NCBI GenBank assembly: GCA_035307765.1
Contig: DATGHU010000033.1
Coordinates: 1 to 56,857, forward strand
Source of the DNA: a bacterium
Lineage (GTDB): Bacteria > Sysuimicrobiota > Sysuimicrobiia > Sysuimicrobiales > Segetimicrobiaceae
Direction: 5' to 3'
DNA: 56,857 nt
Part shown: positions 1 through 2,475 of the stretch, piece after piece
Layout of the letters: each line of letters begins with the position of its first letter
How positions within the stretch are numbered: the first letter of the stretch is position 1
Notes under the pieces: generated by a model
What the model saw: only the letters and a program-made list of their open reading frames with translations
Told to the model about the DNA's origin: nothing
Database searches by the model: none
Translations under genes and position numbers: made by a program

Positions 1-2192
1 GCGCCGTGGTAGCTGCTGACCGTCGAGATCCCCATCTTGGACATGACTTTGAGCAGCCCCGACTCGATCGTCTTCCGATATCCGGCGAGGGCGTCGACCG
101 GCGCGCGGCCGGCGCGCTCCGCTTCGTCGGCGATCAACTCATAGACGAGGTACGGGTTGACGGCGTTGGCCCCGAACCCGACCAGGGCCGAGAGCTGGTG
201 AACGGTGCGGGCCTCCCCGGTTTCGGCGATCAGGCTCACCCGCATCCGCAGGCCGCGCCGGATGAGCTCCTGGTGCACGGCCCCGACGGCGAGGAGCATC
301 GGGATCGGCGCGGACGCGGCAGCCGCGCCGCGGTCGGAGAGGATGAGCAGGACGGCCCCCTCCTCGACGTGGTAGACGGCTTCGTCACAGAGCCGGACGA
401 CCGCCCGCTCCAACCCCTCCCCCCCTTGGGCGACGGGGAAATCGGCGGGCAGCGTTCGAGTCCGGGCGCCCTCGAGCGCGCGCAGGTCCGAGAGCTGCGC
501 GTTGGTGAGGAGCGGGCTCTCCAGCTCGATCAGCCGCGCGTGCTCGGGGGTTTCTTCGAGATAGTTCGGCCGGACCCCCAGCAGGGTGCGGAGCGACATC
601 ACGAGCCGCTCGCGAAGCGGATCGATCGGCGGATTGGTGACCTGGGCAAACCGCTGCTTCACGTAGTCGTAGAGCAGGCGGGGCCGGGCGGAGAGCACGG
701 CGAGCGGCGTGTCATCGCCCATCGACCACACCGGCTCCGCCGCGTCCTTCCACATCGGCTGGAGCACCCGCTGCAGTTCTTCCTGGGTGTACCCAAAGGC
801 GGTGAGCGCCCGCGCCAGGGCTGCGTGGCGGTCGGCGCCGCCGGCCGCCGCCTCATCCTCCTGCGCCACTTCCTCGAGCCGCCGTCGTCCCGCCGACAGC
901 CAGGCGGCGTAGGGACGCCGCCCGGCGCGCTCGGCCTTGATCGTGTCATTGGTCAGGATCCGCCCCGCCGCCGTGTCCACGGCGATCATCCGGCCCGGGC
1001 CGAGCCGTCCCTTCTCCACCACTCGTGCCGGGTCGAGGTCGATCACCCCCACCTCGCTCGCCACGACCACCAGTCCGTCGTCGGTGATCGTATACCGTGC
1101 CGGGCGCAGCCCGTTCCGATCGAGGGCCGCTCCCACCGCGCGGCCGTCGGTGAACGCCAGGGCCGCAGGCCCGTCCCACGGCTCGGAGAGCCCGGCGTGG
1201 AACTCGTAAAAAGCCCGCAGGGCCTCGGGCATATCGGCGACGGTCTCCCAGGCCTCCGGCACGAGCAGCATCATGGCGTGGAGCAGGTCCCGACCGGAAT
1301 GGACCAGGAGGTCCAGAACGTTGTCAAGCATCGCGCTGTCGCTTCCGCCCGCCTGGATCACCGGCAGCAGGTCGCGCATTCGCTCCCGCCAGAACGGAGA
1401 GCGCAGATCGGCCTCGCGGGCGCGCATCCAGTTGACGTTGCCCCACAGTGTGTTGATCTCGCCGTTGTGGGCGAGCAGGCGGAAGGGCTGCGCCAGCGGC
1501 CAACTGGGGAACGTGTTCGTGCTGTACCGCTGGTGGAACACGGCGAGGGCCGTCTCGAACTGCGGGTCGCGGAGGTCCGGGTAGAACCGGGGGAGCTGCG
1601 GGGCGATGAACATCCCCTTGTAGACAACGGTGTGGTGGGAGAGCGAGGAGATGTACGCGTCGTCGATGCGCTCCGCCGCCCACCGCCGCTCGATTACGTT
1701 GCGGGCGAGGTACAGCAGCCGTTCGAAATCCACCGGGCCCAACCGTTCCGGACGGCCGATCATCACCTGCTCGATCTGCGGCCGGGTGCGGGCGGCCTCG
1801 CCCCCCAGCGCCGCGACCGCCACGGGCACCTTCCGCCAACCGAAGAGGACCAGCCCTTCCTTAATGATGGTCTCCTCGATGATCGCCCTCGCCCGGGCCT
1901 GCCGGCCGGACGCCATCGGCAGGAAGATCATGCCGACCCCGAGATCCGAGTGCCTGGCGACACGGACCCCGAGATGCTGCAGGTCGGAGGCGAGCAGGCG
2001 ATGGGGAATCTGGGTGAGGATCCCCGCCCCATCGCCCGTCTTGCCGTCGGCGGACACCGCGCCGCGGTGGGTGAGGTTGGCGACCGCCTCGAGCGCGCGC
2101 TCGAGAATGGCGTAGCTCCGGCCCCCGGTCGTGGCCACGAACCCGACCCCGCAGCTATCGTGCTCAAACCGTGGGTGATAAAGACCGGACAT
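1..2192 (-). CDS. gltB: Glutamate synthase large subunit, N-terminal part (runs off left edge)
   Basis: Large subunit of glutamate synthase (GOGAT), which moves the glutamine amide to 2-oxoglutarate to make glutamate. About 730 codons lie in the window and the gene continues past position 1; full-length family members have about 1500 residues. Translation of the minus strand begins MSGLYHPRFEHDSCGVGF, so the nucleophile of the class II glutamine amidotransferase domain is Cys14, behind a 13-residue propeptide that would be removed. Further family motifs follow: THRGAV, a NGEINT segment and RNGLRPAR. The ATG at 2192 is chosen because GGGGAGGAG lies just upstream and because it places Cys14 correctly. 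The gene sits behind a riboswitch-like leader. The small subunit (gltD) is not in the window. Confidence 0.95.
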   Translation of the reverse strand, partial: MSGLYHPRFEHDSCGVGFVATTGGRSYAILERALEAVANLTHRGAVSADGKTGDGAGILTQIPHRLLASDLQHLGVRVARHSDLGVGMIFLPMASGRQARARAIIEETIIKEGLVLFGWRKVPVAVAALGGEAARTRPQIEQVMIGRPERLGPVDFERLLYLARNVIERRWAAERIDDAYISSLSHHTVVYKGMFIAPQLPRFYPDLRDPQFETALAVFHQRYSTNTFPSWPLAQPFRLLAHNGEINTLWGNVNWMRAREADLRSPFWRERMRDLLPVIQAGGSDSAMLDNVLDLLVHSGRDLLHAMMLLVPEAWETVADMPEALRAFYEFHAGLSEPWDGPAALAFTDGRAVGAALDRNGLRPARYTITDDGLVVVASEVGVIDLDPARVVEKGRLGPGRMIAVDTAAGRILTNDTIKAERAGRRPYAAWLSAGRRRLEEVAQEDEAAAGGADRHAALARALTAFGYTQEELQRVLQPMWKDAAEPVWSMGDDTPLAVLSARPRLLYDYVKQRFAQVTNPPIDPLRERLVMSLRTLLGVRPNYLEETPEHARLIELESPLLTNAQLSDLRALEGARTRTLPADFPVAQGGEGLERAVVRLCDEAVYHVEEGAVLLILSDRGAAAASAPIPMLLAVGAVHQELIRRGLRMRVSLIAETGEARTVHQLSALVGFGANAVNPYLVYELIADEAERAGRAPVDALAGYRKTIESGLLKVMSKMGISTVSSYHG

Positions 2193-2227
2193 ACCACGAC
2201 TCCTCCCCGCCGATATCCGCGTATAGC

Positions 2228-2282
2228 AAAAGCCCGAGAGAGCGATCCTCTTCGATGAGAGGAACCCCTCCCTCGGGCTTTT
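2228..2282 (-). terminator. Riboswitch expression-platform terminator of the gltB leader
   Basis: Minus-strand arms AAAAGCCCGAG (2282-2272) and CTCGGGCTTTT (2238-2228) are exactly complementary, with an inner CCTCT / AGAGG hairpin, and end in TTTT. It lies 35 bases before the gltB start codon. Its 5' arm is also the 3' conserved block of the aptamer, so the two structures exclude each other. Confidence 0.85.
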
Positions 2283-2400
2283 ATCCCAAAGGTGTGGCGC
2301 CGCTTAGGCCGCCTGTGCCGCTCGGTCCGGGCCGGCCGCTTGTGGAAGCCGCGGAACCCTAGGCACACTCCCTCTTGCGCCCGACCGTTCCGTCGGGCCG
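2266..2400 (-). ncRNA. ykkC-family riboswitch aptamer, probably the ppGpp subtype (2a), in the gltB leader
   Basis: The minus-strand leader of gltB carries the conserved blocks of the ykkC class in the right order: CTAGGGTTCCG at 2362-2352, GGACCGAG at 2328-2321 followed by GCGGCACAGG, and GGGATAAAAGCCCGAGGGA at about 2286-2268. A perfect 7-bp hairpin (GCCCGAC / GTCGGGC, 2398-2379) precedes the first block, where the add-on P0 helix of subtype 2 aptamers would lie. From family knowledge, ykkC subtype 1 senses guanidine, 2a senses ppGpp and 2b senses PRPP; 2a members are linked to amino-acid biosynthesis. The gltB context therefore favours ppGpp. The last conserved block is shared with the 5' arm of the terminator at 2282-2228, so ligand binding would block termination and act as an ON switch. 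The class call is firm; the ligand call is inference. Confidence 0.82.
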
Positions 2401-2446
2401 AACAAGCTGATCGGGCGGGCACGATCTCCGCCGGATATTTAGCCAT

Positions 2447-2475
2447 TTTTTACCAAATCCCGAAGGCTTTGTCAA
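2447..2475 (-). promoter_or_regulatory. Sigma-70-type promoter for gltB
   Basis: On the minus strand a perfect -35 TTGACA (2475-2470) is followed after 17 bases by TAAAAA (2452-2447). Transcription would start near 2440, giving a leader of about 250 nt that contains the whole aptamer and terminator. Confidence 0.7.

Follow-up and report, generated by a model that had tools for sequence, protein, structure and literature searches.

A probable ppGpp-type ykkC riboswitch upstream of glutamate synthase in Candidatus Sysuimicrobiota

Introduction

The leader of a glutamate synthase gene at the start of an uncultured bacterial contig raises the question of whether an RNA element controls this gene and, if so, which ligand that element would sense. 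The window considered here is the whole stretch of DNA that was analysed (56,857 nucleotides), and its nearest named relative is Terrabacteria group bacterium ANGP1, now Candidatus Sysuimicrobiota, class Sysuimicrobiia. An initial annotation had placed a ykkC-family riboswitch, probably of the ppGpp subtype, between a promoter and the gene. Published work on the ykkC superfamily provides positions by which such an assignment can be judged. Position 46 is A in guanidine-I RNAs and the equivalent position 49 is a pyrimidine in the other subtypes, while position 96 is G in PRPP aptamers and is not G in native ppGpp aptamers; the single change G96A converts a PRPP aptamer to a ppGpp aptamer, a switch of about 40,000-fold (PMC6031431). 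The element specific to ppGpp and PRPP aptamers is P0, a helix joining the two ends of the aptamer, which is common to both subtypes (PMC6031431).

Results

A ykkC aptamer precedes gltB

Three alignments served for comparison: A1, of 34 relatives from the class; A2, of 31 RNAs of PRPP type, most of them ahead of purine genes; and A3, of 18 guanidine-I RNAs, mostly with SMR transporter genes downstream. A further 10 2a-type (ppGpp) RNAs from other genomes lie before ilvE, a sodium-dependent transporter, ABC transporters and a glutamate-synthase-type gene, among others. The covariance models were R1, a class model built from the 34 relatives with the window's genus left out, R2 (PRPP) and R3 (guanidine-I). 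The features of the locus are as follows.

2447-2475, minus strand: putative promoter, TTGACA (2475-2470), 17 nt, TAAAAA (2452-2447) with TGG before it
2379-2398, minus strand: 5' hairpin GCCCGAC...GTCGGGC, upstream of and outside the conserved aptamer
2376-2257, minus strand: ykkC aptamer including P0 (RF00442, 52.2 bits; R1, 112.5; R2, 86.1; R3, 47.6)
2369-2375, minus strand: P0 5' strand AGAGGGA, pairing with 2264-2258
2352-2362, minus strand: conserved block 1, CUAGGGUUCCG, from the RF00442 alignment and the sequence
2318-2328, minus strand: conserved block 2, GGACCGAGCGG, containing C2320, from alignments A1, A2 and A3
2291-2295, minus strand: ACACC, the segment joining P2 to P3 (equivalents of A74-C78), with almost no variation in A1 and none in A2
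2274-2288, minus strand: P3, UGGG AUAAAAG CCCG, in which column pair 99-112 alternates between GC and AU, a two-sided change
2273, minus strand: A at the equivalent of position 96, a site with G in every PRPP and guanidine-I reference
2258-2264, minus strand: P0 3' strand UUCCUCU, pairing inside the terminator hairpin in the predicted OFF state
2225-2281, minus strand: intrinsic terminator, its 5' arm overlapping the P3 3' strand (2278-2268), its 3' arm at 2242-2232, followed by UUUU
2200-2208, minus strand: GGGGAGGAG, resembling a ribosome-binding site, 7 nt ahead of the gltB start
1-2192, minus strand: gltB, glutamate synthase large subunit (NF008730, E 3e-239; GATase_2 and Glu_syn_central), start codon at 2192

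RF00442 (Guanidine-I), the only Rfam family to match the leader, aligned end to end at 2373-2266 on the minus strand, covering model positions 1-107 of 107, with 52.2 bits (E 2.6e-8 in 801 bases searched), a score under the curated cut-off of 63. The class model R1 gave 112.5 bits (E 1.1e-25), the next best match in the window having an E of 0.21; because this model was made from close relatives, its score speaks for homology and not for the ligand. By a full-length covariance-model match, though one below the 63-bit cut-off, the aptamer belongs to the ykkC superfamily, and the ykkC-family riboswitch first annotated ahead of gltB is thus borne out, with a complete aptamer and slightly shifted limits. 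All three conserved ykkC blocks are present (CTAGGGTTCCG at 2362-2352, GGACCGAGCGG at 2328-2318 and GGGATAAAAGCCC at 2287-2275). No second credible ykkC element was found in the 3.82 Mb genome, where the other RF00442 matches are noise (E 1.1 and 8.4). The family and domain matches listed above likewise confirm that the gene downstream encodes glutamate synthase; it is truncated by the end of the window, which is also the end of the contig.

Fold and covariation of the aptamer

Covariation was assessed for 30 proposed pairs in 34 relatives outside the window's genus, with 500 shuffles and five measures. Standard pairs make up 95.4%, compared with 89.1% in the shuffles, two-sided changes occur in 15 of the 30 pairs, and none of the 500 shuffles reaches the observed value on any of the five measures; the signal is lost when the pairing partners are slid. 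For P0 there are two-sided changes in three of six pairs, and 96.6% of cells are paired. P0, P1 and P3 all form in the minimum free energy (MFE) fold of the aptamer alone. P0 also carries the conserved AG on its 5' side (A2369, G2368) and GG on its 3' side (G2266, G2265) that characterise the ppGpp subtype. The window copy departs from the near-invariant positions in two places: U2288 faces G2274, and G2267 replaces the usual A.

Some other copies in the class are also irregular. Two family members (L031 and L060) have a shortened P3-P0 junction and are likewise off the near-invariant pattern, and a gltB-linked copy at L061 9133-9301 (minus strand), in which a large insertion separates P2 from P3 and the P0 strands match poorly, may be degenerate.

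The extra 5' hairpin, which had been taken as a mark of the ppGpp subtype, does not serve as one. The hairpin exists at 2398-2379 but is unconserved and differs from P0. The 64-nt leader containing it has no stability beyond that of shuffles (z -0.83). A stable hairpin is absent from the leaders of relatives L028 and L005, and 5' hairpins are not common to the relatives.

A terminator that competes with the aptamer

The terminator hairpin at 2281-2225 has an MFE of -36.9 kcal/mol (z -6.32), and none of 200 shuffles is as stable. A simple terminator scan did not call it, because the U-run comprises only 4 U. Across the class, 39 of 43 copies have a downstream 3' arm that fits the P3 3' strand with no more than one mismatch. 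The C/U position that varies in this strand covaries in most copies with both its P3 and its terminator partners (the table has a few rows displaced by one base in P3). Since the terminator 5' arm is the P3 3' strand, and the P0 3' strand is also taken in, aptamer and terminator are mutually exclusive; in a longer RNA the MFE fold favours the terminator over the aptamer. The last conserved block therefore doubles as the terminator 5' arm, as had been proposed. From this mutual exclusion we predict a transcriptional ON switch, a logic that can indeed be read from the sequence as the initial annotation held.

The promoter is less clear. TTGACA with a 17-nt spacer agrees with the consensus promoter first described, and similar layouts recur in relatives L028 (TTGACA-N17-TAATCG) and L032, but the -10 element, TAAAAA, is weak and a consensus promoter scan made no call at 2475-2447.

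Diagnostic positions and the question of subtype

At the equivalent of position 46/49, which is A or G in the 18 guanidine-I RNAs, U or C in the PRPP RNAs and mostly C in the 2a set, all 34 class relatives and the window (C2320) have C. At position 96 the same 34 relatives and the window (A2273) have A, with G in 31 of 31 PRPP and 18 of 18 guanidine-I RNAs. The window thus has the pyrimidine at 49 of the ppGpp subtype and, at 96, one of the states found there (A, C, U or an absent base). C2320 and A2273 stand where guanidine-I RNAs have A46 and G89, and the gene is gltB where that subtype would have one for guanidine export or degradation. For a PRPP aptamer G96 would be expected in place of A2273, and a purine biosynthesis gene in place of gltB here and of gltB, ilvB and cimA in the class. 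The register of position 96 is an alignment choice, since the class RNAs have one base fewer after P3 than Firmicutes 2a and 2b RNAs; A2273 was assigned to it from its adjacency to GCCC, and the G-A following GCCC/U is constant.

Comparisons of whole sequences were less informative. A Firmicutes 2a profile gives the window 55.5 bits and PRPP profiles give it 53.9, where true 2a and PRPP controls part by at least 17 bits, and such sequence-only profiles were rejected as a judge of ligand for the class RNAs. R1 in turn scores a Firmicutes 2a RNA (91.3) and a PRPP RNA (89.4) alike. Rfam was also rejected as a judge of subtype: RF00442 gives PRPP and ppGpp-type RNAs 52-69 bits and, as with guanidine-I RNAs, no other family is reported for them. 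The model search suggested with the initial annotation accordingly returned a match (52.2 bits) but allows no ranking of subtypes, because Rfam has no separate ppGpp or PRPP model. As overall sequence does not tell 2a and PRPP RNAs apart here, the ppGpp assignment rests on the two bases, P0 and gene context.

Gene context across the class

Among the 43 genomes of the window's class, 33 have a ykkC match; some genomes of the window's genus and family have none. The genes downstream are mostly gltB, next acetolactate-synthase-type genes (ilvB) and, twice, a citramalate synthase gene (cimA). Neither a purine gene behind the class ykkC elements nor a guanine aptamer in tandem with them was seen. 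Glutamate synthases are listed among the contexts of subtype 2a (eLife 2018, PMC5912903), and the amino-acid gene set of this subtype is described there and in PMC7266159, which gives glutamate synthesis as a ppGpp riboswitch target. As a gene for amino-acid biosynthesis or transport, a group that includes glutamate synthase, gltB thus fits the ppGpp subtype, and the proposal that an amino-acid biosynthesis gene favours ppGpp gains from the class-wide gltB/ilvB/cimA set, which agrees with subtype 2a. The contexts of the NDP (2c; NUDIX/HAD hydrolase) and 2d (EamA/TauE) subtypes do not fit the genes found in the class.

In at least five acetolactate-synthase-type leaders of the class a T-box above the Rfam cut-off adjoins the ykkC element. 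Tandems of ykkC followed by T-box were located at L025 1654-1872, L048 4944-5236 (minus strand), L015 1647-1861, L013 1241-1455 (minus strand) and L007 427-644. Such ppGpp/T-box tandems have been described (PMC5912903, PMC9481103), and those in Sysuimicrobiia are predicted to act as AND gates. The gltB leader of the window is without a T-box. Within its own genome, a T-box without ykkC precedes the best match to acetolactate synthase (G000 C7:74433-74988, minus strand; L214, L219), unlike in other families of the class, so that here the switch sits on gltB alone. The same genome has a RelA/SpoT domain in an 835-aa open reading frame.

In another phylum, a c-di-AMP riboswitch (L210 2261-2397, minus strand; 104.7 bits) lies about 650 bases upstream of a ykkC element before a glutamate-synthase-type gene.

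Discussion

The gltB leader very probably holds a ppGpp-responsive riboswitch of ykkC subtype 2a that acts as a transcriptional ON switch. This reading, the best supported of those considered and the one first proposed, is drawn from C2320, A2273, P0 and the gltB/ilvB/cimA regulon taken together. The two irregular sites of the window copy (2288 and 2267) and the terminator's run of four U weigh against it. The class RNAs resemble ppGpp riboswitches in their P0-P1-P2-P3 architecture, the C at 49, the lack of G at 96 and the ON-switch terminator layout, and also in their amino-acid genes, among them glutamate synthase and, in related genomes, acetolactate synthase behind a T-box tandem. They differ from them in being GC-rich, in having GAGGG and not GAGCGG after P3, one base shorter, and in an overall sequence that is no closer to Firmicutes 2a than to PRPP RNAs.

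These differences bear on two alternatives. A PRPP riboswitch (ykkC subtype 2b), in which accumulation of PRPP would turn glutamate synthase on, would have the same fold, with P0 and the pyrimidine at 49 common to both subtypes (PMC6031431); the 2a and PRPP profile scores of the window are close and the R2 model still gives 86.1 bits. We nevertheless regard it as very unlikely: every class relative has A in place of the invariant G96 of the PRPP RNAs, and the regulon is one of amino-acid synthesis, with T-box tandems and with neither purine genes nor a tandem guanine aptamer seen. The near-equal distance of the class RNAs from Firmicutes 2a and PRPP RNAs, together with the shorter stretch after P3, could instead suggest a lineage-specific variant that reads pppGpp, pGpp, GDP or another nucleotide in place of ppGpp. 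The Sysuimicrobiota RNAs would then form a separate ykkC specificity class on amino-acid genes, for example for pppGpp, pGpp or another guanosine nucleotide, with a shortened P3-P0 junction. Such a class seems unlikely to us, as the ppGpp-defining base, P0 and the regulon are all retained and the same ligand is the more parsimonious explanation.

That RF00442 is the sole Rfam match, and that the core blocks and P1-P3 are shared, might be read as pointing to a guanidine-I riboswitch (RF00442, subtype 1). The match falls below the curated cut-off of a model that also finds PRPP and ppGpp-type RNAs, however, and R3 gives 47.6 bits against 112.5 for R1 and 86.1 for R2. With C for the guanidine-binding A, A for G89, P0 present and other genes downstream, among them no transporter or carboxylase gene, guanidine sensing is scarcely credible. 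Decay of a former riboswitch, with ligand binding lost and only a terminator or leader left, would account for the two near-invariant positions at which the window copy differs and for the genomes of the genus and family without a match. It is nonetheless a most improbable history for a copy whose R1 score of 112.5 bits is not below those of the other two genus members (L058, 110.6; L059, 108.9), and whose aptamer, folded alone, makes P0, P1 and P3.

Under the preferred ppGpp reading, amino-acid shortage would lead RelA/SpoT to make ppGpp, which would bind between P0, the P1/P2 stack and P3. In the ppGpp structure the base C75, within A74-C78, pairs the ligand guanine (PMC6031431); here the guanine would pair the C of ACACC, where G96 sits in PRPP aptamers. 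Bound ppGpp would stabilise P0 and P3 and so withhold sequence from the terminator at 2281-2225, and RNA polymerase would read through into gltB, raising glutamate synthesis. Without ppGpp the terminator would form. We infer the ligand, the direction of control and the use of the switch in the cell from the architecture and context set out above.

A riboswitch-mediated link between the alarmone and glutamate synthase is not new, having been published in 2018 (PMC5912903); among the papers searched, none deals with these RNAs in Sysuimicrobiota. The present finding extends the reach of ppGpp-type riboswitches to an uncultured phylum, in which they would form a small regulon of amino-acid genes (gltB, acetolactate synthase and citramalate synthase). 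Natural variants that combine A at 96 with a shorter junction offer material for understanding how ykkC aptamers set their specificity. If the reading is true, the alarmone would act on these amino-acid genes directly through RNA.
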